A stretch of 64,000 bases of DNA, from NCBI GenBank assembly GCA_007745835.1, contig CP036424.1:2715968-2779967 (forward strand). The letters are read 5' to 3'. Of the stretch, positions 43,792 through 61,084 are shown in pieces. Under the pieces are notes generated by a model. It did no database searches. It was not told where the DNA came from and saw only the letters and a program-made list of their open reading frames with translations. Numbering within the stretch: the first letter of the stretch is position 1; each line of letters starts with the position of its first letter. Made by a program: the position numbers and the translations under genes. This DNA comes from Planctomycetes bacterium MalM25. Its GTDB lineage: Bacteria; Planctomycetota; Planctomycetia; Pirellulales; Lacipirellulaceae.

Positions 43792-44762
43792 GCCCTCTCC
43801 GGAAGCGAGCGGCGGTGACCCTAGTGCGATCGCAGTTGGGTCTCTCCGAGCGGAGGGCGTGCCGAGCGATCGGCCAGCCGCGATCGAGCCAGCGATACCG
43901 ATCGAAGCCACGTGGCGACGAGCCACGCCTGATCAAACGGATGCTGCAGTTGGTGCGTCGGCGGCCACGGTTCGGCTACCGGCGGATCGCGGCGTTGCTC
44001 AGGGCCGACGGCTTCCGGGCGAGCGAGTCGCGGGTGCTGCGTCTGTGGCGGAAGGAGGGCCTGAAAGTGCCTCGAAAGAAGCGGAAACGACGCCGATTGG
44101 GCGTGAAGGAGAACGGTTGCGATCGTCGTCGAGCCACACACAAGAACCACGTGTGGGCGTGGGACTTCGTGTTCGACAAGACCTCGAAGGGGACTCAGCT
44201 GAAGTGGCTCTCGATCGTCGATGAGCACACGCGCGAGTGCCTGGCCTTGAAATGCGATCGGGGCATCACGAGCGAGGACGTGATCGACACGCTGGCGGAA
44301 CTCTTCGCGATGCACGGCGTGCCGGAGCACATCCGCAGCGACAACGGCCCAGAATTCACGGCGGGGACGATCCGGCGTTGGCTGGAACAACTCGACGTCG
44401 GCGCGCTGTACATCGAGCCGGGCAGCCCGTGGCAGAACGGCTACGCGGAGAGCTTCCACAGCCGCTTCCGCGACGAGTTCCTGGCGGTCGAAGAGTTCGA
44501 GTCGCTCGCCGCGGCTCGTCGGCTCACGGCCGCTTGGCGAGACGACTACAACCACCACCGGCCGCACAGCTCGCTGGGGTACGTCGCCCCGGCCGAGTTC
44601 GCGACCCGCTGCCCCGCTTCCGCTCCGGAGTCGCTTTCGGCTACGCCTCAAGCACGCCTCCGCTCCAGCAGGGCAGCGGCCTTACCCAACCCGTACCTTC
44701 ATAACGCGTGGTACAGGAATTCGATGCTGGTCACCCCGATTCCATCTTCGACCGTGTGTTAG
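43779..44762 (+). CDS. IS3-family transposase OrfB (made as OrfAB fusion)
   Basis: From the slip site the -1 frame encodes about 327 residues: an HTH_21 part (RRACRAIGQPRSSQRYRSKP, RFGYRRIAALLRADGFRASE) and an rve/DDE integrase core with VWAWDFVFD (first Asp), EHIRSDNGPEFTAGTIRRWL (second Asp), and NGYAESFHSRFRDEFL (catalytic Glu), ending YNHHRPHSSLGYVAPAEF plus a ~45-residue tail. No start codon is needed if it is produced by frameshifting. All three catalytic residues are present, so the transposase may be active. Confidence 0.9.
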   Translation, partial: GKLLSPLRKRAAVTLVRSQLGLSERRACRAIGQPRSSQRYRSKPRGDEPRLIKRMLQLVRRRPRFGYRRIAALLRADGFRASESRVLRLWRKEGLKVPRKKRKRRRLGVKENGCDRRRATHKNHVWAWDFVFDKTSKGTQLKWLSIVDEHTRECLALKCDRGITSEDVIDTLAELFAMHGVPEHIRSDNGPEFTAGTIRRWLEQLDVGALYIEPGSPWQNGYAESFHSRFRDEFLAVEEFESLAAARRLTAAWRDDYNHHRPHSSLGYVAPAEFATRCPASAPESLSATPQARLRSSRAAALPNPYLHNAWYRNSMLVTPIPSSTVC

Positions 44763-45177: not shown

Positions 45178-46239
45178 CTAAGGCAGGTCGACGACCATCC
45201 CGTCGCTACGATCGCCGAGAGAGTTGAACATGATAACGTCGATTCCATACTCGATCGACTGGACGTGGCCGTCCGCAAAGACCGCGTTGAAGGCCGCCGG
45301 GTGGGCTGACCCGAAGTGATAACCGTAAGCGTCGGTGTCCTCGGATTGGGAATCGACGTCTGGCGCCGGCGCGTACCCGGTGTAGCGGATGATGTCGGGG
45401 TCCCAACCGTCGGTCCAGCCAATGTCGTCGTGTGTGGCGCCGACCTGGTAAAGGTCCGTGTGGAGTCGCTTTTCGCCGACGACCATCGTCTTCGACAGTC
45501 CGTCGGTGATGTGGCGGGTCTTCGACGGTGACGACATGCCGGTCCGCACAACTACGCCCTTGAACTCGACGTCGTACTTCTTGCCGCGGAAGCGGATCTG
45601 CTGGGTGGCCGCCGCCAGGACGTTGCCGTGCCGGACGCCCTGCCAGAACCAGGGCTCAAAGTTAAGTCGGTCAAGGTCAAGGATGTTCGCGGGTGTCGAG
45701 GCGGCGTAGTCCGAGAGGGCGCAACCCCCTTCACAGGCGTCGGCCTCCCCGTCGCCCTGGTCGGCGCGGGTGTATACCACGGTCGCGCCCCGGCGTGAGG
45801 GGCAGTTGTAGAGCGGCACCGGCGTGCCGCGGACGATCCGGTCACGTTCCTGATCGCCGGCTCCGTAGCCACTCGAAATCGCCTGGAGGTTGCCACTCTC
45901 AACGTAGGGCAAGATCTGAACCATCCAGCCATAGCCGTTGGCGTACTGAACGCTCGCGTCTCCCTCGTTGTGCCAGGGCTCGGTGCCGCCCGTCGGAAAC
46001 TCCCGCTGGGTGCTCTCATAGTTCAGAACGGCCAGCCCCATCTGCTTCAACTGATTGACGCAGGTCGTCCTCATGGCGGCTTCCCGAGCGGCTTGCACCG
46101 CGGGCAGCAGCATCGCCACCAGGATTCCGATGATCGCGATGACGACCAGCAGTTCGACGAGCGTGAACCCTCGGGCCGTACCGTCGGGTCGCCTCTCGGC
46201 GGTGAGACTCTCGCGAATCGAAGAGCCACGCACGTCCAT
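45178..46239 (-). CDS. DUF1559 prepilin-like protein
   Basis: A 353-residue protein. The leader [20 protein letters not shown] comes after 23 residues and is followed by [20 protein letters not shown]. Body: YESTQREFPTGGTEPW, RHITDGLSKTMVVGEKRLHT, HFGSAHPAAFNAVFADGHVQ. It sits 54 bp downstream of a PEP-CTERM protein and is probably co-transcribed from the promoter at 47668-47695, making it part of the polysaccharide locus regulon. Confidence 0.88.
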   Translation of the reverse strand: MDVRGSSIRESLTAERRPDGTARGFTLVELLVVIAIIGILVAMLLPAVQAAREAAMRTTCVNQLKQMGLAVLNYESTQREFPTGGTEPWHNEGDASVQYANGYGWMVQILPYVESGNLQAISSGYGAGDQERDRIVRGTPVPLYNCPSRRGATVVYTRADQGDGEADACEGGCALSDYAASTPANILDLDRLNFEPWFWQGVRHGNVLAAATQQIRFRGKKYDVEFKGVVVRTGMSSPSKTRHITDGLSKTMVVGEKRLHTDLYQVGATHDDIGWTDGWDPDIIRYTGYAPAPDVDSQSEDTDAYGYHFGSAHPAAFNAVFADGHVQSIEYGIDVIMFNSLGDRSDGMVVDLP

Positions 46240-46293: not shown

Positions 46294-47424
46294 TCAGACT
46301 CGGTTGGCGACGGAATGCCTGCGGGCTCTGAGCGACCCGACAACAAGCATGCCGCCTACAATCGCCAGCGAGCCCGGTTCGGGGACCGCGAGGGCCGCCG
46401 CGGGGGCCACCGTGACAACCGTGAGCTGCTCGCCCTCGGCGCCGTAGTTGGTCTCCCACAGGTCGTAGTGAAGCTGACCGACCACGCCGAGGCCGTCGTC
46501 GTTGGGCAGGCCGTTGAGGCCGCCAACGTTGTCTCGGTAGACGGTGTAATCCGCGGCGTCGACGACTCCGTCTTCGTTGAAGTCGCCCGAAACACTGCCG
46601 CTGGTGAGGGAGACATCGATGTTGCCCTGGACGCCCTCACCGGTGATCAGACCGGCGTCGACGTAGCCGTTCACGCTGCCGACCTGGTCTCCCTTGATGG
46701 TGACCTGACCCGACCCGAAGATATCGATCTTCGATCCGGATTGGATCGAAAGCTGCGTGCCGCCGCCGTGGATGTTGTTCAGGTTGAACTCACCGCCACT
46801 GCGGACATTGACCGTCGCCGTCCCGCCGAAGACGCTAAAGTCCTGCGATCCGAGGCCGAGGATGCCGCCCGTCTGATTGAGTGTGCCCGAGATTTCGACA
46901 ACGGCTTCGCCGGTGCTGCCCCACCAAAGGTGACTCGCCACGTTGACGACGCCCCCCTCGTTGATGTTGAAGAAGGCCAGCGTGTCGCCGATGTTCGGCC
47001 CCCTCGCGAGCCAGAGGATGCGACCGACATCGACCACAGCGCCATTGTTAACGTCCATCGTGGCGTCGACGAAGCCGTTGTTGCCGACCACCAAGTCCTC
47101 TATGAGGGTTAGCTTGCCGCCGCTGTTCACCTCGAGAACGCCCCCCTCATCGACGCCGATCAAGAGCCGGTTGATCTCGGGGGCTTCGTAGTCGAGCGTG
47201 ACGGTCTGAACCGCCCAGTTGATCCGCGCCTCGTCTCCTAGACCGGGAACGTCGGCGACGACCGTGCCGTCGTTCAATCGCCAGCCGGGCGTCGTCCCGT
47301 CCGAGATGTCCTGCCAGGCCCCACCCTCACGGTAACGGAAGGTATCGGCGTTGGCGTCTTCGGCGACGATCGCCAAGGCAACGCTAAGCAGCCCAACGAT
47401 CTGGGTGATTTTGAAGAGCTTCAT
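46294..47424 (-). CDS. PEP-CTERM/dockerin surface protein with parallel-beta-like repeats
   Basis: A 376-residue secreted protein: signal peptide MKLFKITQIVGLLSVALAIV...ANA, then a repetitive Gly/Asn-rich region (LLIGVDEGGVLEVNSGGKLT, LVVGNNGFVDATMDVNNGAV, INEGGVVNVASHLWWGSTGE, NQTGGILGLG) of the autotransporter/PEP-CTERM beta-helix-like type. A dockerin-like EF-hand DFNEDGVVDAADYTVYRDN follows near residue 275, and the PEP-CTERM ending VPEPGSLAIVGGMLVVGSLR. It is a clear paralog of 51424-52353 but has the added dockerin segment. Probably an abundant matrix or substrate-binding surface protein; no enzymatic motif is seen. Confidence 0.85.
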   Translation of the reverse strand: MKLFKITQIVGLLSVALAIVAEDANADTFRYREGGAWQDISDGTTPGWRLNDGTVVADVPGLGDEARINWAVQTVTLDYEAPEINRLLIGVDEGGVLEVNSGGKLTLIEDLVVGNNGFVDATMDVNNGAVVDVGRILWLARGPNIGDTLAFFNINEGGVVNVASHLWWGSTGEAVVEISGTLNQTGGILGLGSQDFSVFGGTATVNVRSGGEFNLNNIHGGGTQLSIQSGSKIDIFGSGQVTIKGDQVGSVNGYVDAGLITGEGVQGNIDVSLTSGSVSGDFNEDGVVDAADYTVYRDNVGGLNGLPNDDGLGVVGQLHYDLWETNYGAEGEQLTVVTVAPAAALAVPEPGSLAIVGGMLVVGSLRARRHSVANRV

Positions 47425-47667: not shown

Positions 47668-47695
47668 AGTATACCAAATATGGTCTAGGTGTCAA
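47668..47695 (-). promoter_or_regulatory. Promoter with operator in the spacer (regulon site 1)
   Basis: Minus-strand -35 TTGACA (47695-47690), a 16-nt spacer containing GACCATATTTGG, and -10 TATACT (47673-47668). The palindrome TACCA-AATA-TGGTC (plus-strand 47672-47685) lies in the spacer and touches the -10. It drives 46294-47424 and then 45178-46239; the leader is about 235 nt. The rest of the 271-bp gap 47425-47695 has no recognised gene. It starts directly at the stop codon of the upstream glycoside hydrolase gene. Confidence 0.72.
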
Positions 47696-50600
47696 CTAGA
47701 TTGGCGTTATTAGTGCTTCGATCCGTGACGAATGGTGATGAGAAGGCGTTTCCTCGCTGCTTGAAATCGATTCTGCCCTGTCCTTCTCTTCCACCGCTGG
47801 GACTTGAGGCGGTTCAGCCCCTGACGGCCGCTCGACCAGCAGCAAGTCGAGATGTCGATCCGCAGGCGTCGGATCAAGAACGACACGTGTTCTTGGAATA
47901 ACCGGCTCGGCGTCGCTGCTCGCCAACGAGAAGGAAGCCAAGGCGAGATCAACGGCCGTGCTTCGATCTGGTGGGCTAACCGGGGCGACTGAGGCGAGAG
48001 CCATGAGACTCAGCTCCTCCTCGGCGATCAGCCGGGGCCCAGCCGCCTCCAGGTCCGTTGCCAGGCTCGAAGAGGGCGAGGCGGTCGCACCGTATTGAAC
48101 TCGCCAGACATCGTAGTCCTCCGGGCCGACGGAACCGTTGCCGTCACCGTCCGCGCCACCATACGGGGCGCCGAGTGTTCCCTGAGCATCACGCCAAACG
48201 GTGTAATCAATTGCATCGACAGCGCCATCGAGGTTGTAGTCACCGGGTAGCGCTGGCGGAGCGTGGACCGTAAACTCTTGCGTGACGATTGACTCTCCAG
48301 GATTCCCCCTCCCATCGACCGGGGTCAGCCTCATCCGGTAAGCCCCGGTAGCGAAGCCGCTCGTTGAAACCCGGAAGTCGTCCGACCAATTGTGCACACC
48401 GCTGGCCGTGTCGTACGTGCTGACCGCGTTGGGGCTGGTTGTCTCGTAGAAAGTTGCGATTGCTTGCCAAGTGCCGCCGCCATCGTCGCTCACCTCGGCG
48501 AGCACTTGGTTGTCCTCTTGACGCGTCCACTGATCGAAACGGCCCGTTTGCCAATCATCGCTCACAGCGACCGCGACGTTTACCAACTGGCCGGGTGAAT
48601 CAACGACGGGGCTCCCAACGTTCAGCTCCGGCGCCATCAGGTCACCGAATGACTTGAGGACGCGGACCCGATCGATCGGGATGTTGTTGCCGACGAGGCG
48701 CAGATCGGCGCCGCCGTTCTGACGGTTGCCGAAGAAGGCGTCGTCGAGGTAGATGCGTCCGGTTCGCCACTCGTTCGATCCGGTCAACTGGATCGACTGG
48801 GAGTTCTTGTAGGCGGCGCCGGTCGCGTCGTATTGGACTCGCAGCGATCCAGTGCCGACGTCTTGATAAGTCACCTCGACGATCGCGTTGAGCCCCGCGT
48901 GGACCTCATTCGCGAAGGCGTCGTCGATGTTCAGATAGAGGTAGTGCGACTCGGGATCGCCGGTGAGCTGTCGGGCTTCGCGCCCCCCGCCGACGACCAC
49001 CTCGGTCTGCCCGTCGCCGCTGAACTCGAGGTTCTCAAGCCCGTTGGCCGTATCGACCTGCCCTAGATCGGCGTCGACCGCGAGAACGCTCTCTTTCAAG
49101 ACGCTGGCGCTGCGGACGAACAGGTTGCCGCCGGGGACGGACAAGCGGAAGTCGGCGTCGCCGTTCTGCCGGTTGCCAAAGTGCGCGTCACTCACTTCGA
49201 AGCGGTGCGTGCGCCACTCGCCACTGCCCGTCAGCGGGGCGGCCGAGCCCACCGAGTAGGGTGAGGCGAGCCCGTCGTACTCGAGATCGAACTGCCCCAC
49301 CAACAGATCGAGGTACTCGACCTCGATCGTCACGTCGCGACCGTTCTCGTCCGCTGAGAGGTAGCTGTCATCGATCGAGAAGTAGAGGTAAGGATCGGTC
49401 GACCGGATGGCGGTCGTGCTGACGCCTTGCACGACGACGTCCACCGTTTCGACATCGCTGTCGCTGGTGGGCACGCTGTGCAAGCGGTCGGAGGCGTCCG
49501 GGTTCCATCGCGCCTCGCCCCCCACGTTCGAACGGTTCTCCAGGTCCGACTCGCTCGGAATTAAGCCGTTGATCGACGCCTTGTCCTGCAGCGCTTGCTT
49601 AGCGGCGCCGGTCAGCGCCATCCACCAGTCGTTCGGCCGCGGGTCACTGACCTGATAGGTCAACGGATTGCCCTGCCCATCGGTGTCGGGGACGGGCGGG
49701 TCGTCGCTTGCGGGGATGAGGTTCGTCCCCTCGTCGTACTCGTCGAACATGCCGAGGAAGAGCCACGGCGCGTCGGTCTCGTTGACGGCGTCGTCCAGCA
49801 TCCGCCAATAAAACTCACCGTCCTCACGATCGCGTGAGGTCGCCGTACTGCTGTTCTGCAGGTGGGTCCAGGAGAAGCCTGGGAAGACGTGGGGAATGTG
49901 CGTCGTGACCCCATCGAGAGTCGCTTCGTCCGGCGCATAGGTGTCGCCCCCCTTCCAGTAGCCCTGCCAGGGGATGTAAGCGTCGTGGAGGGCCGCGTTC
50001 GCGAGCTGCGCGGGCGACTCCGAGTGGCGGCCGGCGCCGACCACGTACACGCCGCGGGACTGAAAGTAGCTGATAAGCTCTTGCTGCTGGGCCGTCGAAT
50101 AGCTGTTGCCGCTGCTCACGTAGAGGCCAAAGATGGCGACCACTGGCTTGCCCCCTTCTCGCTGGTAGTGCGAGTCGTTCAGCATGTCGAGGCCGCCAGG
50201 GTCAGTCAGGTACTCCCAATCATCCTTCACGTGCTGGATGACTTGATCCCGTTCCGAAGGCGAGCCGCCGTTCTGGATGTCGTACTCGATCGCCCAGGTG
50301 CGGCCCGCCCGGTGCGCCGCGTCGCGAGCGTTGACAACCGGCCATTGCGGCTCGCCCGAGTAGTCACCCGCGCCGTCCTTGTACATGAACGAGGGGCGGA
50401 AGCGTTGCAACAGCACGCCGTCGATGTCGTGCTCGCGCATCCAGTGGAAGTGGCGATCCACCACGGAATCGTTCGCCGACGAGAAGAGGTACGCCTGATC
50501 ACCGCTGGCCGTCGTGACGCCCGGCACGGGGAAGAGTTCGGTCGAGTCGTAATCGTTTGCGTCGGGCCACTGTTCGATCGACCAATCGCCGGGCACGCCC

Positions 50601-51280
50601 CAGTGGACGTAGCCCTCGTCGGCGGCGTCGTTTGGGGTGTTGAACCACCCCTGGTAACCCGTGAGCACTTTGCCCGCCAGGTTCGAGGCGTCCACCGGTC
50701 GGCTCGGGCCCGTGTAGGGCGCCTCCCAAGGCGGCGACCAAGCCCACTCGAGCCCGCTGCCCGCGAACGGTTCGTCCGAGACAGTGACCGAGGCAACCGG
50801 AGCGCCCAACGCGATGACGCGGAAGTCATGTCCGTTCGCTCCGTTGGCGAACTGGGCCTCGGTCAGGTAGTGATGCGAGCTGACGAACTGCTGTGTGTCG
50901 ATGCGCGAAGAACGCGAATGGTACTCCGTCTGATCGAAGTTCGACGCGAGGCTGTCGTACTGGACCTTAATGGTCCCCGAGCCTTCGTCGAAGTAGTCAA
51001 CCTTTACGTACAACGAGTCGCCCTGCGTAAAGCCGGGCAACGACACAATCGGATTCAGATTGTAGTACAAGTAGGCCGGCCCGACGACGACGGGTGTGCC
51101 CGCGCGTTGTTCGGCGTCCCAAGTGCCGTCTCCGCCATTGGTCGAGGGCGTGTTGAAGGTGACGCTCGCCAGCAGCAAGCGCCCCTCCAGGGGCTCGAGC
51201 CGCAAGCAGTTCCGCTTCCTCGTGACATCCGATCGCCGGGCACGCGAACAGCGAGTTAACAGGGAGGCGAGACGCTTCAT
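47696..51280 (-). CDS. Secreted GH71/99-like glycoside hydrolase with carbohydrate-binding-like modules and dockerin
   Basis: 1194 residues from the ATG MKRLASLLTRCSRA. The leader contains LRLEPLEGRLLLASV, the planctomycete LEPRxLL-type export/anchoring motif. A beta module (~38-170) is followed by the catalytic domain (~200-560): LAGKVLTGYQGWFNTPNDAA, HFHWMREHDIDGVLLQRFRP, HVFPGFSWTHLQ and FLGMFDEYDEGTNLIP (acidic MFDExDEGT cluster). Two more beta-rich repeats (DPYLYFSIDDSYLSADENG; SHYLYLNIDDAFANEVHAG) probably bind carbohydrate. A dockerin-like segment GDYNLDGAVDAIDYTVWRDA lies near 1050. GH71/GH99 enzymes cut alpha-mannans or alpha-1,3-glucans; the substrate here is inferred only. No PEP-CTERM tail. 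Confidence 0.85.
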   Translation of the reverse strand: MKRLASLLTRCSRARRSDVTRKRNCLRLEPLEGRLLLASVTFNTPSTNGGDGTWDAEQRAGTPVVVGPAYLYYNLNPIVSLPGFTQGDSLYVKVDYFDEGSGTIKVQYDSLASNFDQTEYHSRSSRIDTQQFVSSHHYLTEAQFANGANGHDFRVIALGAPVASVTVSDEPFAGSGLEWAWSPPWEAPYTGPSRPVDASNLAGKVLTGYQGWFNTPNDAADEGYVHWGVPGDWSIEQWPDANDYDSTELFPVPGVTTASGDQAYLFSSANDSVVDRHFHWMREHDIDGVLLQRFRPSFMYKDGAGDYSGEPQWPVVNARDAAHRAGRTWAIEYDIQNGGSPSERDQVIQHVKDDWEYLTDPGGLDMLNDSHYQREGGKPVVAIFGLYVSSGNSYSTAQQQELISYFQSRGVYVVGAGRHSESPAQLANAALHDAYIPWQGYWKGGDTYAPDEATLDGVTTHIPHVFPGFSWTHLQNSSTATSRDREDGEFYWRMLDDAVNETDAPWLFLGMFDEYDEGTNLIPASDDPPVPDTDGQGNPLTYQVSDPRPNDWWMALTGAAKQALQDKASINGLIPSESDLENRSNVGGEARWNPDASDRLHSVPTSDSDVETVDVVVQGVSTTAIRSTDPYLYFSIDDSYLSADENGRDVTIEVEYLDLLVGQFDLEYDGLASPYSVGSAAPLTGSGEWRTHRFEVSDAHFGNRQNGDADFRLSVPGGNLFVRSASVLKESVLAVDADLGQVDTANGLENLEFSGDGQTEVVVGGGREARQLTGDPESHYLYLNIDDAFANEVHAGLNAIVEVTYQDVGTGSLRVQYDATGAAYKNSQSIQLTGSNEWRTGRIYLDDAFFGNRQNGGADLRLVGNNIPIDRVRVLKSFGDLMAPELNVGSPVVDSPGQLVNVAVAVSDDWQTGRFDQWTRQEDNQVLAEVSDDGGGTWQAIATFYETTSPNAVSTYDTASGVHNWSDDFRVSTSGFATGAYRMRLTPVDGRGNPGESIVTQEFTVHAPPALPGDYNLDGAVDAIDYTVWRDAQGTLGAPYGGADGDGNGSVGPEDYDVWRVQYGATASPSSSLATDLEAAGPRLIAEEELSLMALASVAPVSPPDRSTAVDLALASFSLASSDAEPVIPRTRVVLDPTPADRHLDLLLVERPSGAEPPQVPAVEEKDRAESISSSEETPSHHHSSRIEALITPI

Positions 51281-51357
51281 CGAACCCGTTCCTAAGTCCG
51301 TAAACAGCAGCGCGAACACGCGACCTTGGCGTGGCGTTCGGCCAAGCCATGCCGATG

Positions 51358-51398
51358 AAAAAATGAGCTGCCGCGGGCGGCTTGGCCCGCGGCAGCTC
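51358..51398 (-). terminator. Intrinsic terminator between two genes of one unit
   Basis: A perfect 14-bp stem GAGCTGCCGCGGGC / GCCCGCGGCAGCTC (51365-51378, 51385-51398) with a 6-nt loop. On the minus strand it is followed by ATTTTTTC. It lies 26 nt after the PEP-CTERM gene 51424-52353 and before the large glycoside hydrolase gene, which has no obvious promoter of its own in the 143-bp gap. Partial readthrough would give a high ratio of surface protein to enzyme. Confidence 0.85.
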
Positions 51399-51423
51399 CT
51401 GTGCAGAGCTTCAACCTAACTGA

Positions 51424-52353
51424 TCAGCGACGGCGTGCCCCGAGAATGGGGAGACCCGCAACGAACAGCAGCAGGCTCGTCGGTTCGGGGATCGCCGACA
51501 GATAGACCGTCGTGAACCCTGGGTTCTTCGTCAGATCGACGACGAGGCTCGACGAGCCCGGGACGCCGGCGCCCGCGATCTTGTTAGCGCCAACGTAGCT
51601 GTTCAGCAGCCCCAGGACGTCACCGGGAACGGTGAGCTCGCCCGAGCCTTCGATGTTGATAAGCGATCCGGCTTGGACCGAGGGCAGTCCGGCCGCGCCC
51701 GAGATGTTGTTCAGCGCGAGCAGGCCGCCGTCTTGGATGTCAACCGTCGCCGTGCCGCCGGTCGCGGTCGAAGCGTTGTTGGTTCCCAAGCCGAGGATGC
51801 CACCGGTCTGATTGATCGTGCCGTAGATGTCGATGTCGGCCGCGCCGGTAACACCCCACCAGAGGTGGCTCGCGACGTTGATCACGCCGCCCGCCTGGAC
51901 CTCGATCACGCCATCCGAGTTGTCCTGAGCGGCCCAGAGGATCCGCCCAACATTGACCTCGCCGCCGTCCTTAACGATCAGCGTGCCAGTGGCGTTCGAG
52001 TTGTTGTTGCCGGCCAGGATGTCCTGGTTCGCGGTCAGGACGCCGCCGCTGTTAACCTCGACCGTGCCGCTCTCGTCCACGCCGATCTGCACACGACTGA
52101 CCGCGGGGACCGCCGAGTTAACGCTGACCGTGTTGCCGCCAAAGTTGATACGGGCGTCGTCGGCGGCGCCGGGGAGGCTCCCATGAACGGCGCCATTGTT
52201 CTTAGCCCATCCGTTCGTCGCCCCACCGGTGTGGAGGTCCGTCCAGTCGCCGCTCTGTCGGTAGCGTAGCGTTTCCGCTGTTGCTTGGTCGGCGATGATC
52301 AACGTCGCAACGAGGAGGATCGCGATGCGGCTGCCAAGGGGTGTCCAATTCAT
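51424..52353 (-). CDS. PEP-CTERM surface protein, beta-helix-like (paralog of 46294-47424)
   Basis: A 309-residue protein with signal peptide MNWTPLGSRIAILLVATLII...ATA, repeat region (QIGVDESGTVEVNSGGVLTA, DILAGNNNSNATGTLIVKDG, VQAGGVINVASHLWWGVTGA, GTINQTGGILGLGTNN) and PEP-CTERM ending IPEPTSLLLFVAGLPILG plus RRR. It shares VNVASHLWWG-type and NQTGGILGLG blocks with 46294-47424. It is first in a minus-strand unit under a TTGACA/TATAGT promoter and is followed by a strong terminator. Role inferred as an abundant extracellular matrix or carbohydrate-binding protein. Confidence 0.85.
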   Translation of the reverse strand: MNWTPLGSRIAILLVATLIIADQATAETLRYRQSGDWTDLHTGGATNGWAKNNGAVHGSLPGAADDARINFGGNTVSVNSAVPAVSRVQIGVDESGTVEVNSGGVLTANQDILAGNNNSNATGTLIVKDGGEVNVGRILWAAQDNSDGVIEVQAGGVINVASHLWWGVTGAADIDIYGTINQTGGILGLGTNNASTATGGTATVDIQDGGLLALNNISGAAGLPSVQAGSLINIEGSGELTVPGDVLGLLNSYVGANKIAGAGVPGSSSLVVDLTKNPGFTTVYLSAIPEPTSLLLFVAGLPILGARRR

Positions 52354-52563
52354 GAGCTCATTGACCGTTGCAAGGATCGAGAAGAAGTAACCGGGATGCG
52401 TGCTGTTGCCAGCCAGTAATGCTCAACTGGGACCTGCTGCGGACACAACTTAAATCACAGGCGGTCGCTGCCTGTCGTAGGCGTGGAACCGGAGCGGGCG
52501 ATGAGTTGGGGCGATGCCGATGGGAAAAGCGACGCGACTCGTCGAATGAGTGCGACAAGGCCG

Positions 52564-52591
52564 ACTATACCAAAAATGGTACGCATGTCAA
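52564..52591 (-). promoter_or_regulatory. Promoter with operator in the spacer (regulon site 2)
   Basis: Minus-strand -35 TTGACA (52591-52586), 16-nt spacer with GTACCATTTTTGG, and -10 TATAGT (52569-52564). The palindrome TACCA-AAAA-TGGTA is at 52568-52581. It drives 51424-52353 and, by readthrough, 47696-51280. The 401-bp divergent gap 52354-52754 also must hold the symporter's plus-strand promoter, which I cannot place; the palindrome could control both directions. Confidence 0.78.
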
Positions 52592-52754
52592 ATATTCGGG
52601 CAAAAACACTCTGATAGGCCGTCCAAGAGTGATCGCATCGCTCAGGAACGAAGGTTCCACGATGCGAACTACTGGGCCTCGCCCGGGCTGATGGCATGCC
52701 CACTGGCCACTACAGTAGAGGCCGTTCGATCTCCCCTCGATTCCCTCGCCCTGC

Positions 52755-54773
52755 GTGCTCGCCGTGTCGCTGAGCTCCACAGACCTCGCCTTGGTATTCG
52801 CCTACGTGGCGGCGTTATTCATCGCGGGGCTCTGGCTCCGCCGCCGAGCTTCGGCGGGGCTGAACCATTACCTGCTGGCCGACCGAAAGACGCCGTGGTG
52901 GATGCTGGGCGTCTCGGGGGTGATGGACTTCTGGGACCTGGCCGGGTCGATCGTGATCGTCACGTTCCTGTTCCTGCTGGGGCCGGCGGGACTGTTCATC
53001 GAGTTCCGCGGCGGGGCCGTCCTGTTGCTGGCGGTCGTCATGCTGTGGACGGGCAAGTGGCGTCGTCGGTCGGGCTGCATGACCGGCGCCGAGTGGATGC
53101 GTTTCCGCTTCGGCGACGGCCCCGCGGGCAAGCTCGCTCAGTCGGCCCGCGCGCTGGGCGGCATCTCGCTGTTCATCGGCCTCGTGGCCTACGCGACTAA
53201 GGCGCTGGGCGTGTTCCTCTCCTCGATCGTGCCGCTGACGCCTTCGCAGGCGGCGATGGCGGTCGTGACGCTTGTTGCCGGCTACAGCGTCTTCTCTGGG
53301 TTCTATGGGCTCATCGCGATCCAGGGCCTGCAGTTCGTGTGCGTCCTGGTGTCGTCAGCGGCCCTCATTGTCCTCGCCATGACCACGGCGCCGCCGTTCG
53401 AAGAGCTGCAACAATCGGCGGTCGCCGTGACCGGCAATCCCGAGTGGGGCAAGGTGTTCCCCGGCGCCGAGGTCTCGCTGCCACCCGCCTACGACGCCTA
53501 CGAGCCGCTCCTGTTCTTGGCGAGCCTCTACCTGGTCCGGAACGTCCTGTTCGGCATGGGCGCTGGGGATGACCCCAAGTGCTTCGCCGCAAAGACCGAC
53601 GCCGACTGCCCGAAGCTCACGCTCCTGTGGACCTCGCTGATGGCTCTGCGCTGGCCGACCATGATGGCTTTCGCGGCGATAGCGATCTCGATCGCACACG
53701 ACGACCAGCTGTCAGGCGCCGATTACCAGGCCGCGTCGGCCGCTGTGCGGGCGCACCGCCCGACCGGAGACTGGGACGCGGTCGTGGCTAAGATCGCGGC
53801 TGCGCCGGATTCTCAGCCCAGCGAGCTGTGTCGATCGCTTGAAGAGTCGCTCGGCCCCGACTGGCCGCCTCGTTTGGCCGACCTAACCGAAGGTGGCCAA
53901 CTCGATCTGGAACGGCTACTGCCGATTGTCCTCGAACGCAAAGTGCCACCAGGCCTGAGAGGCTTGGTCCTGGTCTCACTGCTGGCCGCGGCGACCGCGG
54001 GGCTGAGCGGCTGGCTCAACCAAGCGGCCGGTCTCTTCGCCAACGACATCTACCTCGTGTGGTTCCGCCCCTCGGCTTCCACGGCGGAACAGATCGCGGC
54101 GACCTGGGCGATGGTTCTCGTGATCGTCGGGCTCGGTTATCTGCTCGCGTTCTCTTCGGCTACGGTCAACGGCATCTGGTCGTGGCTGACGATGGGGCTC
54201 GGCAGCGGGCTGATCTTCGCTCAGCTGCTGCCGCTCTACTGGCGACGCTTCAACGGGATCGGCTTCGCGGCGGGCCTCCTGGGGGGCGTGGCAGCCGCCG
54301 CAATTCAGCGGGTCGCCTTCCCCTTCTTGCCCGAGACGTGGGGCGTGCTGAACGAAGAGTGGTGCTTGCTCATGCTGGTGTCGATCGCCGGGCTCCTCGC
54401 CTCGTTGATCGGGACCTATCTGTCGCCTCCGACCCAACGCAAAGTGCTCACCCGATTTTATCTCACAACGCTCCCGTTCGGGCTGTGGAAGCAAGAGGAA
54501 CAGAACCTGTGCGCAGAGCACCTTGGCAAGCTTCGTTCCCACCACGCGCGCGACCTCGGCGGGTTGCCGGTCGCTCTGATTTACCAGATCACACTCTTCC
54601 TGGCCCCGATGTGCGCGGTCATCGGTGACTGGAAATCGGCGACGGCCTTAGGCTCGGCGGCGGCCTTCTGCCTCGGCGGACTATGGCTGATCCGCTTCCG
54701 ATCGCTGAACGAAGAAGCGGACCTCGTCCGCGAGATCGGCGAGGCGCATCAAGAACTGCTAGGCGAAGCCTAG
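52755..54773 (+). CDS. Sodium:solute symporter (SSS family)
   Basis: 672 residues from a GTG (MLAVSLSSTDLAL). About 13 hydrophobic segments, with SSS hallmarks: FAYVAALFIAGLWLRRRA, LNHYLLADRKTPWWMLGVSG, DLAGSIVIVTFLFLLGPAGL, GLSGWLNQAAGLFANDIYLV (Na+-site/SSS signature region) and AATWAMVLVIVGLGYLLAF. A soluble insert of ~110 residues (SGADYQAASAAVRAHRPTGD...ERKVPPGLRGLVLV) is present between helices. It should import a monosaccharide or breakdown product with Na+. It is divergent from the surface-protein unit and tail-to-tail with the GntR-type regulator. Confidence 0.88.
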   Translation: MLAVSLSSTDLALVFAYVAALFIAGLWLRRRASAGLNHYLLADRKTPWWMLGVSGVMDFWDLAGSIVIVTFLFLLGPAGLFIEFRGGAVLLLAVVMLWTGKWRRRSGCMTGAEWMRFRFGDGPAGKLAQSARALGGISLFIGLVAYATKALGVFLSSIVPLTPSQAAMAVVTLVAGYSVFSGFYGLIAIQGLQFVCVLVSSAALIVLAMTTAPPFEELQQSAVAVTGNPEWGKVFPGAEVSLPPAYDAYEPLLFLASLYLVRNVLFGMGAGDDPKCFAAKTDADCPKLTLLWTSLMALRWPTMMAFAAIAISIAHDDQLSGADYQAASAAVRAHRPTGDWDAVVAKIAAAPDSQPSELCRSLEESLGPDWPPRLADLTEGGQLDLERLLPIVLERKVPPGLRGLVLVSLLAAATAGLSGWLNQAAGLFANDIYLVWFRPSASTAEQIAATWAMVLVIVGLGYLLAFSSATVNGIWSWLTMGLGSGLIFAQLLPLYWRRFNGIGFAAGLLGGVAAAAIQRVAFPFLPETWGVLNEEWCLLMLVSIAGLLASLIGTYLSPPTQRKVLTRFYLTTLPFGLWKQEEQNLCAEHLGKLRSHHARDLGGLPVALIYQITLFLAPMCAVIGDWKSATALGSAAAFCLGGLWLIRFRSLNEEADLVREIGEAHQELLGEA

Positions 54774-55858
54774 TGCGTGCTTCCGTTCCGCGGGCCCGAC
54801 GATTCGCCCTTGATCAGTTGGAGCTTGCTGGGCACGTACAGCAGATCGCGTTGCCACTGGTCTTTGGCTCCCCCCGCTTCGATCCATCGCAGGCAATCGT
54901 TGATAAAGTCGCGCGGACTCGGACGCTCGAACGAGGTGATCGAGGGGGATAGGAATCGGCCGACACCCTCGTTGTCGATCGTGCAGAGGGAGAGATCAGA
55001 GCCGATCTCGATTCCCTGCGAACGCGCCGCGCGAACGACCCCGAGCGCCGCGGGCAGCGTGACACAGAGCACCGCGCTAGCCCGGCCGGCGTTCTCCGTC
55101 AGCCACTTCTCCGCGGACGACATAGCGGACTCGAAGATGTTCTCCTCAGCCGACGAGGGGCTGTCGAACAGCTGACAGCCCGCGAAGCCCCGGGCGTCGC
55201 ACCACTCTCGCCACGCCTCGATCCGCTGTGTGGTGATCGCGTCGTGCCCCTGAACGTTCAGGCAGTCGATCTCTTCGTGACCCAGCTCGTGCAAGTAATC
55301 GAGCAGCAGGTGGGTCTCACGCGGCGGGAAGAGCACGACGGAGGGGATCCCCAAATCGCTGAGGTCTTCCGACAGAGAGACGAGGCCCTCCGCCTGAGCC
55401 AGCAGGGTCGAGGTCCACTCGGGGATCGGTTCGGAGCTGGTCACCAAGAAGACGCCGTCGTAGCCGCGGAGCGACTCGGTGACAATCGGGTCGTCCCAAT
55501 GCAGGTAGTTTTGAACACGGACCCGAGCCCCATGCTCGCGAGCCACGTGTTCCGACACGGAAAGCCACTGCTGAAGGTCGGGCGAAAAGGAATCGGGAGC
55601 CAAAGAGGGCGTTAGGAACGCGATCTCGACCGTGCTCTTGCGGGTCTTGCTGGCCGTCAGCTTGGGACGGCGGTTGGGAGGACGCTCGACCAGCCCACGC
55701 CGCTCGAGTTCGCCCAACGCCTTGCGGAGCGTGACTCGGCTCACCCCGCACTCATCGGCCAGGTCGCGTTCCGCCGGCAAACCGCCCCGGGCGTAGTCTC
55801 CATTGGAGATACGCCTCTCGAGCAGGTCGGTCACCTGGGCCAGCTTCGTCTTCGCCAC
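54770..55858 (-). CDS. GntR/LacI-hybrid transcriptional regulator
   Basis: A 362-residue protein. A GntR winged helix occupies residues ~1-70: TKLAQVTDLLERRISNGDYA, GLPAERDLADECGVSRVTLR and KALGELERRGLVERPPNRRP. A periplasmic-binding-protein/LacI-type sensor domain follows (~75-345): VEIAFLTPSLAPDSFSPDLQ, YDGVFLVTSS, IPSVVLFPPR, VLCVTLPAALGVVRAARSQG, SLCTIDNEGVGRFLSPSITS. This GntR-DNA-binding plus LacI-sensor layout is the AraR type, which answers to sugars. It is the only regulator inside the 45-64 kb locus and the likely reader of the TACCA-N4-TGGTA sites. Its stop overlaps the symporter stop in CTAG (54770-54773). Confidence 0.88.
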   Translation of the reverse strand: MAKTKLAQVTDLLERRISNGDYARGGLPAERDLADECGVSRVTLRKALGELERRGLVERPPNRRPKLTASKTRKSTVEIAFLTPSLAPDSFSPDLQQWLSVSEHVAREHGARVRVQNYLHWDDPIVTESLRGYDGVFLVTSSEPIPEWTSTLLAQAEGLVSLSEDLSDLGIPSVVLFPPRETHLLLDYLHELGHEEIDCLNVQGHDAITTQRIEAWREWCDARGFAGCQLFDSPSSAEENIFESAMSSAEKWLTENAGRASAVLCVTLPAALGVVRAARSQGIEIGSDLSLCTIDNEGVGRFLSPSITSFERPSPRDFINDCLRWIEAGGAKDQWQRDLLYVPSKLQLIKGESSGPRNGSTH

Positions 55859-56163
55859 CTAGTCACTTTCTCGATGCTGAATAATGAGACGCCTGAAACC
55901 GCCGAGGGCGTCGCTGTGTCTCCACGCGACGAAGACTCTCTATCCCTCAGAGGATCGTCACTCGGAGGCTTTAACAACAGCCCAGGTTACCCGCGCGATC
56001 CTGCTTAAGGGCGAGGCTGAGAGTAATAACGCCGAGCCGACTGGGCAAAACGACTCCCATCGATCGACGACCAGGGCATTTCGTCGGGCGATGCCATTAT
56101 CCGTTTCGGCAGCAAGCCGGATCTCGTTTGCCACGGTTTTTCTCGCGTCGGCAACCGAATCGC

Positions 56164-56191
56164 TTGCGTTGTGTACCATTTTTGGTACACT
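56164..56191 (+). promoter_or_regulatory. Promoter with operator in the spacer (regulon site 3)
   Basis: Plus-strand -35 TTGCGT (56164-56169), 16-nt spacer, -10 TACACT (56186-56191). The operator is the best palindrome of the three: GTGTACCA-TTTT-TGGTACAC, 8-bp arms, 56171-56190. It should drive 56504-59476 and the genes behind it. The 645-bp gap 55859-56503 otherwise has no supported gene; it must also contain the regulator's own promoter, not located. The leader to the 56504 ATG is about 300 nt. Confidence 0.75.
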
Positions 56192-56503
56192 CGGTGCTGC
56201 GGCGTTGGCGGCGTGCGCCGGCCCTCGCTCATCGATACGCTTCTCAAACGGTTTCGTCGGAATCCTTCTTGGGCTTGTTCCTTCTCGGCCTTAGCGGTGC
56301 AGCGTGCAAGGTATCGCCGGCAGGGCGACCGATAGACGCTGCCTCGCTGTGGTCCTGAGTTCTTCAATCTGAATCAACTTATCGAGTAACTCCGGGGTGG
56401 GAGACGTGCGTTGCGAGGGGGTGGAGCGTGGATCAATCGGTTCCGCCCCCTCGCCACACGTTACGCTCGGGAGCACAACCCTCTAAGCAACCGGACGCCG
56501 TTG

Positions 56504-59476
56504 ATGGTGAGGCTGCGAACACCGAACCTGGGCTCCACGCCTCCTGTTAGGAGGCGGCCCGGTCGCTGCGTCTTGACGCTGGGAGCCTTGCTGGCTCTGG
56601 CCGTTTCGTCGCCAGCGCGTGCGTCGCTCTTCCAGCACTTCGACGCCTCGCTTCCCGATTCCTACATCGACCAGGGGGGGACGGGCGTCTGGCTCGATCA
56701 ATCAGGGAACGGCCTGCACGCCGTGGATGATTCTTCCGGATCGGGCTCAGTGACCCTCTCGACGGACGCATCGGTCTTTCCGACTGGCTACAGCAGCCTC
56801 CGGTTCCAAGGCAGCAACTCGAACAACTACGGTCGCGTCCGTTTGATGACTTCCGGTCTCTCTTCGATGTTGCTCGATCAATCGGGCCCCGACGCCATGG
56901 GCTTCAGCATCTTCGTCGTCGCCAAGGGAGACTCCCCGTCTCCGGTGAGCACCTGGAACGACCTGATCGGCAACACGACCGACGTCGGAGACGGCGCCTT
57001 CTTGATGCGTTTCGCCGAGGACAACGGCCGGTTCCAAGCGGCCCTGGGTGGGCTGACCGTACAGAACAACTTCTCGGGCCAGAACAACTACGGCGCGGGG
57101 GAGGGCTCGGTCTACGCATTCCAGTACGACCCGAGCAATCAAGCCGGAGAGATCTTCCTAGCCAGCTCGCACAACGACTACGTGCAAGTGTTCAACCTAA
57201 GCGATTCGGTCACCGACCGCGACTTCTCCAACAACGACCCGCTGACGCTCGGCAAGGCGTTCGACAACATCTCGCGACTCTTCGTTGGGCACGTCGGCGA
57301 AGTGAAGGTCTTCGACGAGGCCCTGCCGGCGAGCCTCTTCCAGGGCGAGATCGAATCGCTCGCATCTAAGTGGACGGCGAGCCCCGACGGGCGACTCGAT
57401 CTGGTGGTCGATCGTGCGACCGGTGGGGTGACACTCCACAGCCCGGGGAGCCTCGACGTCCCCCTCGCTGGTCTCAGCCTGAAGAGCCCTTCGGGATCGC
57501 TGGACCCGAGCGACTGGCGACCGATCGCCGAAACCGACAACAGCAGCGGCCCGTGGCTCGAATTGAAAGCCGACGCGACCGAGCTCGCCGAGGCGACCCT
57601 CGGCACAGCCACACTCTCGCCCGGGGAGAGCCTCGACCTCGGCGCGGTGCTCGCCCTGAACGGGGAGCCCGACCTCGTCGCCACCTACGCCGACCCGTTG
57701 AGCCTGGATACTCGGGACGTGTTGGTCCGCTATGTCAACGCGCCGCCGGCGGGTCTCCTACCCGGCGATTACAACGACGACGGCGAGGTCAACAGCGCCG
57801 ACTACACCCGGTGGCGAGATGGCGAGGGGCAGGACATCGCGTTCCCCAACGAAGTCGTCTCACTAGGCCGTGTTACCCAAGAAGACTACGGCGTCTGGTC
57901 AGACCATTTCGGCGCCACTCCTGCGTCCTCGGCTTCGCAAGTCCCCGAGGCGCGCGCCTCGATGGTCGGCGCGCTGGCGATGGTGCTGACCGCGTCCTTC
58001 GTTCGCCGGATTCCGAACACGCTGATCGGGTCGGCGGCGCTGGTCCTGGCGTCGCTGTCGTTGACCGCCCCCGCCTCGGCACAGGACGCCACCGTTGGCG
58101 TCTACTACTACCCGTGGTGGGACACGCACAACTGGGACGAGACGCTCCGCGCCCGCATGCTCCCCGAGGATCATCGCCCGACGGCTGGCTACTCGCGCAG
58201 TTCCGACCCGGGGGTGATCGAGGACCACATCAACCAGAGCCACCGCGGCAACATCTCCCTCTGGGCGAGCAGCTGGTGGGGCCCCGGCTCGGTGGAAGAC
58301 ACGGTGCTCCAGACCAGCATCCTGACGCACCCCCGCGCGGGCGAGCTCAAGCACGCCGTGCATTACGAGTCGACCGGACGGTTCGGTTCCTTCAGCTCGC
58401 CCGACTTCTCGGTGCTCAAATCGGATTTGCTCTACCTTGCCGAGAACGTCTTCGACGACCCCAACTACTACCGCATCGATGACCGCCCGGTCGTTTTCAT
58501 GTACGTGACCCGGGCCTACTTCGACGCCCCGGCGGCCCAACAGGCGCTCGCCGCCGCGCGGCAGTCGGTGCTCGACGATTACGGCTACGACCCCTACATC
58601 GTCGGCGACGAGGTCTTCAACGCCTCGTTCAATGCAACGCGGGCGAGCCACTTCGACGCGGTGACGACCTTCGACGTCTACGCGATGTCAGGACTCAGCA
58701 GCGGGGCGGTCGACGCGGCTGACATCCAGCGGGCCGCCAACAAGTACGCGGCGGCCGAGAACGCCGGCGCGACGGTCATCCCGGGAGTGACTCCCGGCTA
58801 CAACGACACGGGGGTGCGGTCGGGCAATCGCCCCACGGGCCGCTACTACACCGGGGACACCATCGCCGACGCCGGGGACGTGTTCACCGACCTGATCGAT
58901 CAGGCCGCTTTGCCGTACGTCGATGAGGAAGTCGACCGCTTGCTGCTCGTCAACTCGTTCAACGAGTGGCACGAGGACACCCAGATCGAGGCCTCGGTCG
59001 TCACCGCCCCCAGCAACACGGACGACTCGTCCACTGGCGACCAGTTCACGCAGGGCGTGACCTACGAGGGCTACGGCACGAAGTACCTCGATCTGCTGCG
59101 CACTCACACCACCCCCGGGGCGCCAGTCTTGATCGATGGCGACGCCGACTTCGACGGCGACCTCGACATGGACGACCTGCCCGCTTTCGCCGCCGCTTGG
59201 GGGGAAGAGAATCTTGTTAACGGTGTGCGTGTGGGCGGCTACGCCAGCCGCATCGCCAGGCCCGATTTCAACTACGATGGCGTCGTCGATTTCGAGGACT
59301 GGTTCGTGATGCGAACCGCCCACCCCTCGGTCAGCAACGCGACGCTGGCGTCGCTTCTCGCGACGCCGGAACCCGGCTCGATCGTCTCATGCGGAATCGC
59401 CCTGGTGATGGCCTCCTGGCGCAGGCCGCGGCATCGGCAGGGCTCGGCTCGAATAGGCCAAGGAGAACAACTGTAA
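56504..59476 (+). CDS. Tandem protein: LamG-dockerin-PEP part fused to GH99-like part with dockerin and PEP-CTERM
   Basis: 990 residues from the ATG MVRLRTPNLGS. Part 1: signal peptide (CVLTLGALLALAVSSPARA), LamG-like lectin domain ~40-290 (LFQHFDASLPDSYIDQGGTG, IFVVAKGDSPSP), dockerin-like GDYNDDGEVNSADYTRWRDG near 425-475, then a PEP-CTERM-like VPEARASMVGALAMVLTAS from residue ~480. Part 2 begins with an internal signal-peptide-like NTLIGSAALVLASLSLTAP-ASA, then a GH99-like domain (~527-860: VGVYYYPWWDTHNWDETLRA, LLLVNSFNEWHEDTQIEAS with the GH99 acidic motif), EF-hand dockerins DGDADFDGDLDMDDLPAFAA and DFNYDGVVDFEDWFVM, ending in PEPGSIVSCGIALVMASWRR. No stop, ATG or GTG separates the parts. 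Likely endo-acting alpha-mannanase-like; specificity inferred. Confidence 0.85.
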   Translation: MVRLRTPNLGSTPPVRRRPGRCVLTLGALLALAVSSPARASLFQHFDASLPDSYIDQGGTGVWLDQSGNGLHAVDDSSGSGSVTLSTDASVFPTGYSSLRFQGSNSNNYGRVRLMTSGLSSMLLDQSGPDAMGFSIFVVAKGDSPSPVSTWNDLIGNTTDVGDGAFLMRFAEDNGRFQAALGGLTVQNNFSGQNNYGAGEGSVYAFQYDPSNQAGEIFLASSHNDYVQVFNLSDSVTDRDFSNNDPLTLGKAFDNISRLFVGHVGEVKVFDEALPASLFQGEIESLASKWTASPDGRLDLVVDRATGGVTLHSPGSLDVPLAGLSLKSPSGSLDPSDWRPIAETDNSSGPWLELKADATELAEATLGTATLSPGESLDLGAVLALNGEPDLVATYADPLSLDTRDVLVRYVNAPPAGLLPGDYNDDGEVNSADYTRWRDGEGQDIAFPNEVVSLGRVTQEDYGVWSDHFGATPASSASQVPEARASMVGALAMVLTASFVRRIPNTLIGSAALVLASLSLTAPASAQDATVGVYYYPWWDTHNWDETLRARMLPEDHRPTAGYSRSSDPGVIEDHINQSHRGNISLWASSWWGPGSVEDTVLQTSILTHPRAGELKHAVHYESTGRFGSFSSPDFSVLKSDLLYLAENVFDDPNYYRIDDRPVVFMYVTRAYFDAPAAQQALAAARQSVLDDYGYDPYIVGDEVFNASFNATRASHFDAVTTFDVYAMSGLSSGAVDAADIQRAANKYAAAENAGATVIPGVTPGYNDTGVRSGNRPTGRYYTGDTIADAGDVFTDLIDQAALPYVDEEVDRLLLVNSFNEWHEDTQIEASVVTAPSNTDDSSTGDQFTQGVTYEGYGTKYLDLLRTHTTPGAPVLIDGDADFDGDLDMDDLPAFAAAWGEENLVNGVRVGGYASRIARPDFNYDGVVDFEDWFVMRTAHPSVSNATLASLLATPEPGSIVSCGIALVMASWRRPRHRQGSARIGQGEQL

Positions 59477-60522
59477 TGTTAGGCGCTGTTCCCTTCGCGT
59501 TCCTCGTCTGCCGCCCCAAGCGGCCGCGACGCGGATTCACGCTCGTCGAACTTCTCGTGGTGATCGCGATCATCGGCATCTTGGTGGCGCTGCTGCTACC
59601 CGCCGTGCAAGCAGCCCGCGAGGCCGCTCGCCGAGCGCAATGCGTCAACCAGCTGAAGCAGCTCGGGCTGGCGATCATCAACCACGAGGCCGCCCAGCAA
59701 GAGTACCCGCCGGGTTCGGTCGTCTACGGCCCCTGGTGGCGGCGCAACCAAGAGTTGATGCCTTTCGATTGCACCGGCTCCACGGACGACTGCACCGGGG
59801 AGAACTGGGCCATCGAGATTTTGCCGTACCTCGAAGAGCAAGCGCTCTACGATATGTACGACCACGACGAACGGAACTTCGCTCTGGGCGATCCGGACGG
59901 GGACGGCCAGATCAACCAGAAGGTGCGCGACACCCGGCTCGAGGCGATGCTCTGCCCATCGGATGCGTTCGCCCAAGAGTGGGGAGGCGCCTTGGGCCCC
60001 GGCTCCTATCAGGCGATGGCCGGCGTCATCGCTCAGACCGACAGCGGCAGGTGGTTCAACTGGACAAGCCCCTACATCGGCAGCAGCAATCCGACCGTCG
60101 ATGAAATGAAAGATTACTTCCAATACCGCGGATTGTTCTACAACGTCGGTCTGCCGGGGCTGAGCGTTGCGAAGTCAGCGAACGTCATCGACGGGACCTC
60201 GAAGACGTTCATGGTCGGCGAGTTCCACGTGGTGAACCCCACCCCGGATTCGAGACCGCTCTACTGGGCGGTCACCCAGCGATGGTACGCCCGTGGCGAG
60301 GCGATGGCCGATCCGTTGCTCAGGAGCTCGGACCTCCAGTACTGCCTCGACAACATGGTGACGGCGCCCCAATGGGCCTGCAGCCGGGCGTACGGGTCGA
60401 GCCACCCGGGAGACGGCGGCAACTGGCTGCGTATCGACGGCTCGGTCGCTTTCCTCACCACCTCGATCGATGGCGCACTCTACGAAGCCTTGGCGACAAT
60501 CGCGGGCGAAGACGGCTTCTGA
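59476..60522 (+). CDS. DUF1559 prepilin-like protein
   Basis: 348 residues from the ATG MLGAVPFAFLVC. This ATG shares its A with the preceding TAA (TAATG), with an AGGAGAA ribosome-binding site 11 nt upstream, so it is translationally coupled to the GH99-like gene. The leader [20 protein letters not shown] is followed by [20 protein letters not shown]. Body: VIDGTSKTFMVGEFHVVNPT, SSHPGDGGNWLRIDGSVAFL. Same role as the other pseudopilin-like paralogs. Confidence 0.9.
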   Translation: MLGAVPFAFLVCRPKRPRRGFTLVELLVVIAIIGILVALLLPAVQAAREAARRAQCVNQLKQLGLAIINHEAAQQEYPPGSVVYGPWWRRNQELMPFDCTGSTDDCTGENWAIEILPYLEEQALYDMYDHDERNFALGDPDGDGQINQKVRDTRLEAMLCPSDAFAQEWGGALGPGSYQAMAGVIAQTDSGRWFNWTSPYIGSSNPTVDEMKDYFQYRGLFYNVGLPGLSVAKSANVIDGTSKTFMVGEFHVVNPTPDSRPLYWAVTQRWYARGEAMADPLLRSSDLQYCLDNMVTAPQWACSRAYGSSHPGDGGNWLRIDGSVAFLTTSIDGALYEALATIAGEDGF

Positions 60523-60601: not shown

Positions 60602-61084
60602 ATGTTTGGCACAACACAATCGCACCGCTACCACGGCGACTTCTGCTCGGCGGTTATGGCCGCGTTGCTGCTGGCGGCCATCGGCTGTAACAACTCGAAG
60701 TTCGAGTTCGCCGAGGTCCAGGGGAGCGTGACCCTCGACGGGCAGCCGGTGCCCGAGGCCAAGGTGGTCTACATGCCCGTGGCCAGCAACGACGACGGCG
60801 AGGCGGGGCCTTACTCGCAAGGCGTAACCGACGCCGAGGGGCGATACACGCTGAAGTCGGTGGAGCCGAGCCCACACAAGGGTGCGGTTGTCGGACAGCA
60901 CAAGATCGTCGTGAGCACAAAGAGGGCTCACCTCGATCCCGATAAGCTCGACGTCGAAATCATCGATTCGCCGGAGACCATCCCGCGCCAATACACCTAT
61001 TACAAGCGGACGCCTCTGACGTTCGAGGTCCCGTCCGGAGGGACCGAGATCGCCGACTTCCAACTCACCAGCTCCCGCCGCTAA
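60602..61084 (+). CDS. Small lipoprotein with carboxypeptidase-regulatory-like domain
   Basis: 160 residues, MFGTTQSHRYHGDF. The leader VMAALLLAAIGC has a lipobox-like AIGC. The mature domain FEFAEVQGSVTLDGQPVPEA, GVTDAEGRYTLKSVEP, VVGQHKIVVSTKRA and VPSGGTEIADFQL aligns along its length with 5623-6072. It is placed 79 bp after a DUF1559 gene and 31 bp before a sulfatase gene, the same order as in the 2.1-7.8 kb module. Confidence 0.88.
   Translation: MFGTTQSHRYHGDFCSAVMAALLLAAIGCNNSKFEFAEVQGSVTLDGQPVPEAKVVYMPVASNDDGEAGPYSQGVTDAEGRYTLKSVEPSPHKGAVVGQHKIVVSTKRAHLDPDKLDVEIIDSPETIPRQYTYYKRTPLTFEVPSGGTEIADFQLTSSRR

Follow-up and report, generated by a model that had tools for sequence, protein, structure and literature searches.

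Among described bacterial regulators, those closest to the system considered here have a DNA-binding domain of the GntR or LacI type, joined in AraR and in the LacI family to a sugar-sensing domain. In AraR of Bacillus subtilis the residues E30, R41 and R45 have been reported to set or make the base contacts (PMC4218819), and half-sites have been described for other proteins of the GntR type, NanR recognising repeats of TGGTATAW, NagQ the sequence TGGTATT and GabR the sequence ATACCA (PMC4494728). Little has been published on the regulatory sites of Planctomycetes; the text of a survey of the LacI family makes no mention of this phylum (PMC4052901), and in full-text literature searches we found no paper on a planctomycete GntR/LacI regulon or on the locus treated below. 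This locus lies in a stretch of 64,000 nt from Planctomycetes bacterium MalM25 (contig CP036424.1, positions 2,715,968 to 2,779,967; hereafter the window), in which three predicted promoters that share an embedded palindrome surround the gene for a hybrid GntR/LacI-type regulator. The best explanation of the whole, to which we assign a probability of roughly 0.8, is that the palindromes serve as promoter-embedded operators at which this hybrid protein would act as a repressor, blocking RNA polymerase until released by a sugar. The evidence supports a real, lineage-restricted and local regulon, much as the first-pass annotation of this DNA had interpreted it, with two corrections to the assignment of genes. 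It would be a new local gene switch, built in an ordinary, known style.

The composite sites and their specificity

All three sites, predicted to be σ70-type promoters, fall within 8.5 kb around the gene for the GntR/Peripla_BP_3 regulator (Table 1). They read TTGACA-cctagaccatatttgg-TATACT (site 1), TTGACA-tgcgtaccatttttgg-TATAGT (site 2) and TTGCGT-tgtgtaccatttttgg-TACACT (site 3), and when aligned on the operator give TTGACACCTAGACCATATTTGGTATACT, TTGACATGCGTACCATTTTTGGTATAGT and TTGCGTTGTGTACCATTTTTGGTACACT, respectively. Their coordinates, strands and uniform spacer of exactly 16 nt (3/3) agree with the first-pass annotation, which had in addition placed the palindrome TACCA-N4-TGGTA in each spacer. 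The latter description is exact for sites 2 and 3, while site 1 departs from it by one mismatch, reading GACCATATTTGGTA (GACCA); G at this first arm position is a regular variant, with 11 G and 10 T among the 21 sites collected from seven genomes as described below. Nor does the palindrome lie wholly inside the spacer, as had been supposed; it runs into the beginning of the -10 hexamer by 2 nt, or by 4 nt where the arms are 8 bp long. In site 3 the palindrome extends over 20 bp, GTGTACCA-TTTT-TGGTACAC (56171-56190), next to a poor -35 hexamer. The right arm, TTGG followed by TA, doubles in the sites as an extended -10 element (TGN before the hexamer), and the operator overlaps the -35/-10 region at all three predicted promoters. 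An operator lying across the spacer and into the -10 box occupies a classical repressor position. Outside the composite element, neither the flanks nor the leaders show any relationship between the three sites.

With up to 2 mismatches allowed, the composite pattern has 3 matches in the window against 0.18 expected, a number reached in none of 100 shuffles. In the whole 4.72-Mb genome the pattern TTG-N8-ACCA-N4-TGGTA-NANT is matched without mismatch by the three sites only, as is TTG-N7-KACCA-N4-TGG-TAnnnT, four more matches to the former, all unrelated, appearing at 2 mismatches; a longer 28-nt pattern with 3 mismatches tolerated again returns the three sites alone. The genome-wide search that the first-pass annotation had proposed thus finds the composite site to be not common, but confined to the regulator locus. 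The bare palindrome TACCAN4TGGTA was rejected as a discriminator: with at most one mismatch it has 42 genomic matches, most of them with GC-rich centres, as against 75 for its reversed control. The short palindrome alone is nonspecific, and specificity comes from the A/T-rich centre together with the promoter register. An independent scan of 45-64 kb for consensus σ70 promoters picked out sites 1 and 2 alone (11/12, each with a TG ahead of the -10), although shuffles yield 1.9 matches at this threshold.

Distribution and conservation among relatives

Orthologues of the regulator are present in 7 of 43 Lacipirellulaceae genomes, the six relatives (G048, G081, G086, G123, G146 and G150) showing 52-76% identity; a search with the regulator alignment places Bythopirellula polymerisocia Pla144 and a Bythopirellula metagenome-assembled genome among the carriers, in keeping with the family name Lacipirellulaceae (PMC7717034). 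A class-wide profile search of 397 genomes, with a threshold of E 1e-70, gave no orthologue beyond the family. Every one of the seven carriers has the composite site beside the regulator, 21 sites in total, and in six of them the sites are clustered; the seventh, the congener G081, has a single site with the -10 sequence TATGTT. A search of the order (396 genomes) with TTG-N7-KACCA-N4-TGGTA-NNNT gave 36 matches, 21 of which adjoin the regulator in the seven carriers, the other 15 being scattered. The 36 family genomes lacking the orthologue contain no site cluster, at most single stray matches, and a mismatch-tolerant search of 12 genomes (5 without the orthologue) found sites only at regulator loci. 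Similarly, no such site lies near the distant homologue in G143 (36% identity) or near paralogues of about 30%, and in G143, G058 and G115 the composite site was not found genome-wide either. The regulator is the sole predicted regulator among the window genes conserved at all seven loci. The gene for a GH71/99-like protein is restricted, within the family, to six of these carriers; the remaining one, G081, has kept the regulator and one site although this gene is absent.

In intergenic alignments of the three window regions with G048, and of one of them also with G081, the 28-nt element is the main conserved block, the leaders and flanks around it having otherwise diverged. Site 1 has its orthologue at G048:458346, before the same PEP-CTERM a/DUF1559 a pair, while orthologues of site 2 precede PEP-CTERM b in G048, G086, G123, G146 and G150, and in both G048 and G081 a counterpart of site 3 occupies the same place, between the regulator and the adjoining unit. 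The register of promoter and palindrome is also rigid. When all A/T-centred palindromes of the seven loci were taken without selection for a promoter (n = 26), a TTGxxx hexamer with at least 4/6 identity to TTGACA was found to start exactly 10 nt upstream of the palindrome in 20, other offsets occurring at most once each, and two TTGCGT sites add to this register. In the set of 21 sites TTG, ACCA, TGGTA and the last T are invariant through selection by the search pattern, but conservation extends to unselected positions, namely ACA of the -35 hexamer (15/21, 15/21 and 16/21), TA preceding the left arm (17/21 and 17/21), A at the fourth position of the -10 hexamer (20/21) and A five nt before the -35 (17/21), with the A/T centre also kept. 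A spacer of 16 nt is shared by the window sites (3/3) and the 21 collected with a pattern of that length; two further sites fit 18 nt.

Other arrangements of the half-sites also occur. In four carriers (G086:118143, G123:101406, G146:4390161 and G150:39476; loci L041, L043, L070 and L072) TATACCA-N4-TGGACTA, followed about 6 nt on by TTGGTCTA, stands some 60-110 nt upstream of the regulator gene and is possibly an autoregulatory operator; in the window no such arrangement was found in front of the regulator gene. In some carriers palindromes without a -35 hexamer at the usual distance also lie upstream of the regulator, and extra palindromes lacking the usual -35 (G086:112871 and 105570 in L040, G123:93125 in L042, G146:4398441 in L070) are situated upstream of a GH71/99-like or sulfatase gene, 100-140 nt from a promoter-type site facing the opposite way.

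The regulator and its putative targets

The hybrid GntR/LacI architecture previously claimed for the regulator is borne out by both Pfam and structure comparison, the N-terminus matching PF00392 (GntR) at 51.8 bits (cut-off 27) and the C-terminus PF13377 at 59.9 bits (cut-off 26.5). The nearest solved winged helices include those of YvoA, AraR and NanR, and the sensor domain aligns with LacI-family structures at Z 22-24 and with the AraR effector domain (3tb6) at Z 22.9. All seven orthologues carry the AraR contact residues E30, R41 and R45 at the equivalent positions, while the three aligned homologues without a site, that of G143 and the paralogues, have Tyr at position 41. As a half-site, TGGTATA matches NanR and comes close to NagQ and GabR. 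Taken together, the shared switch sequence is very probably the binding site of this regulator.

On the scheme that we favour, a regulator dimer would read the inverted half-sites (T/G)ACCA and TGGTA flanking the A/T-rich 4-bp centre and, with an operator that covers the spacer and reaches into the -10 box, the bound dimer would keep RNA polymerase off the promoter. A sugar freed from the target glycan would then bind the LacI-type domain and release the regulator, such that the PEP-CTERM, pseudopilin-like, GH99-like and sulfatase genes would be switched on jointly. We infer each of these elements, regulator binding, repression, the sugar as signal and the identity of that sugar, from sequence and its comparison. 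Since GH99 is a family of endo-alpha-mannosidases, the inducer could perhaps be a mannoside, and a sulfated alpha-mannan is, given the GH99 matches and the sulfatase, a reasonable guess, but no more, for the target glycan.

Table 1. Regulator, composite sites and neighbouring features (positions within the window)
Feature	Position	Strand	Remarks
Composite promoter/operator 1 (predicted)	47668..47695	-	TTGACA-N16-TATACT; operator core 47672-47685; upstream of PEP-CTERM a/DUF1559 a
Composite promoter/operator 2 (predicted)	52564..52591	-	TTGACA-N16-TATAGT; operator core 52568-52581; upstream of PEP-CTERM b
Composite promoter/operator 3 (predicted)	56164..56191	+	TTGCGT-N16-TACACT; upstream of GH99/DUF1559 b/lipoprotein/sulfatase
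Regulator	54770..55858	-	GntR winged helix (residues 7-62) and Peripla_BP_3 (187-314); predicted binder of the three sites
DUF1559 (SBP_bac_10) pseudopilin-like protein a	45178..46239	-	
PEP-CTERM protein a	46294..47424	-	First gene behind site 1, 243 nt from -10; PEP-CTERM matches weak, below cut-off
GH71/99-like protein, 1207 aa	47696..51319	-	Weak GH99 match; downstream of terminator
Intrinsic terminator, strong	51365..51398	-	14-bp stem, 12 GC, then ATTTTTT; directly after PEP-CTERM b
PEP-CTERM-like protein b	51424..52353	-	First gene behind site 2, 210 nt from -10; no family model match
Sodium:solute symporter	52755..54773	+	Divergent from site 2; in cassette
GH99-domain protein	56411..59476	+	First gene behind site 3, 219 nt from -10
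DUF1559 pseudopilin-like protein b	59389..60522	+	
Small carboxypeptidase-regulatory-like protein (putative lipoprotein)	60602..61084	+	
Sulfatase fused to GH71/99-like domain	61116..63803	+	

Sites 1 and 2 are followed by related genes. Across the carriers, six genomes have a site before PEP-CTERM a (mostly with DUF1559) and six have one before PEP-CTERM b; other sites stand before GH99-type genes in three genomes besides the window and before sulfatase or DUF1559 units adjoining the regulator, and orthologous units retain their site despite changes in gene order. Among the units that the first-pass annotation had set behind the sites, that of PEP-CTERM and the GH71/99-like gene is split by a terminator. 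As this terminator is strong and lies between the two genes, they do not form a simple operon in the window, and the GH71/99-like gene would need either read-through or a promoter of its own. In each of the six genomes that have PEP-CTERM b, the window included, the gene is followed by a hairpin, GC-rich or long, that ends in a T-rich tail; between the loci (L036, L040, L042, L071, L072 and the window) the hairpin sequence differs but the strong stem is kept, the T-tract being weakest in G048, and in four of the six genomes the GH71/99-like gene is located elsewhere. The further proposal that site 2 also controls the divergent symporter finds no support, since G081 retains the symporter-regulator pair but lacks a site in front of the symporter gene. 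In the leaders of 210-243 nt neither a riboswitch nor any other Rfam family was detected, the Rfam matches elsewhere being two tRNAs.

The sulfatase ends in a GH71/99-like domain that shares about 30-33% identity, across loci, with its relative in the 1207-aa protein. Between the tRNA gene at 42424-42497 and the cassette, on whose edge it lies, an open reading frame at 43644-44762 (+) resembles an IS3-type transposase, with integrase core motifs recognised by eye.

Alternative explanations and known systems

Certain observations weigh against a dedicated repressor acting through these sites. The unit behind site 2 is interrupted by the terminator, and no further site lies close to the start of the regulator gene in the window, so that autoregulation is not evident there. 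The operator core, ACCA-N4-TGGT, fails the usual GntR consensus Ny-GT-Nx-AC-Ny, GT and AC appearing in the consensus order only as distant outer bases at some sites; this mismatch does not bar membership of the GntR family, because the family has exceptions (PMC4494728) and the protein is assigned by its domains. Lastly, the co-occurrence counts are not independent of one another: judging by the GH71/99-like gene (6/7 carriers), the whole cassette, sites and regulator included, seems to be passed on as a unit. Joint inheritance and the deviation from the consensus would both also suit an unlinked transcription factor owning the sites, with the GntR/LacI protein a bystander in the cassette. We consider this improbable, since G081 retains the regulator and one site without the GH71/99-like gene, no other regulator among the window genes is common to all loci, and a GntR winged helix fits both the half-site and the recognition residues, while the lack of sites anywhere else in these genomes fits a local rather than a global factor.

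It could be argued that the same regulator binds the sites but activates, or does both, remodelling the promoter from within the spacer as MerR does, a possibility to which the rigid register between the -35 and the operator (20/26 palindromes) and the weak -35 of site 3 lend some appeal. Activation of the MerR type requires, however, an over-long spacer of 19-20 nt, whereas the 16-nt spacer observed here is near the optimum of 17, and most sites combine TTGACA with an extended -10 and should need no help; a MerR-like activator is therefore disfavoured and, AraR-type and LacI-type proteins of such build being mostly repressors, appears unlikely. The repeated element might instead represent only a strong type of promoter, duplicated together with paralogous PEP-CTERM/DUF1559 genes and devoid of any operator role, given that the right arm, TTGG-TATA, doubles as an extended -10 and that the genes behind sites 1 and 2 are mutually related. 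Yet the left arm, ACCA, has no role in σ70 recognition and nevertheless mirrors the right arm, the flanks and leaders of the three sites share no relationship, some sites stand before GH99 and sulfatase genes where PEP-CTERM is lacking, and the element is absent from the rest of the genome, all of which makes this explanation very improbable.

If the repressor-operator explanation holds, a regulator-operator pair readable from seven genomes with hardly any background matches would offer a testable entry point, and PEP-CTERM and DUF1559 proteins, of obscure function in these bacteria, would be linked to a single programme of glycan degradation; the inducer, once found, would point to the substrate. 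More tentatively, and with rather less confidence than we would place in its converse, a dedicated hybrid repressor might, by way of identical operators within the promoters, run a planctomycetal counterpart of the polysaccharide-utilisation locus, an extracellular apparatus composed of PEP-CTERM surface proteins, DUF1559 pseudopilins, GH99-like enzymes and sulfatases, in which intrinsic terminators behind a PEP-CTERM gene would set the ratio of structural proteins to enzymes. Were this so, two large families of unknown function would acquire a role in glycan use.

Comparison with AraR, the regulator of the arabinose regulon of B. subtilis, reveals the same union of a GntR winged helix with a LacI-type sugar-binding domain, the same DNA-contact positions and sensor fold, and likewise palindromic operators in several promoters of glycan-degradation genes. 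The AraR operator, At(T/A)tGTaCGTAcaa(A/T)T (PMC4218819), differs however from KACCA-N4-TGGTA, three of the five AraR promoters contain two boxes where mostly single promoter-embedded sites are found here, and both lineage and target genes are different. AraR gives no whole-protein sequence match to the regulator, and no arabinose genes are seen among the targets (GH99, GH71/99-like, sulfatase, PEP-CTERM and DUF1559), so that the two are not recognisable as orthologues. With the local sugar regulons of the LacI family, of the type collected in RegPrecise (PMC4052901), the locus shares the small number of operons and the sugar-responsive sensor domain, but its DNA-binding domain is GntR and not LacI. 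To NanR, NagQ and GabR it is linked by the half-site (TGGTATA, TGGTATT and ATACCA, respectively), and NanR is among the solved relatives of its winged helix; in those systems, however, the half-sites form direct repeats, whereas here they constitute an inverted pair about a 4-bp A/T-rich centre at a fixed place in the promoter.

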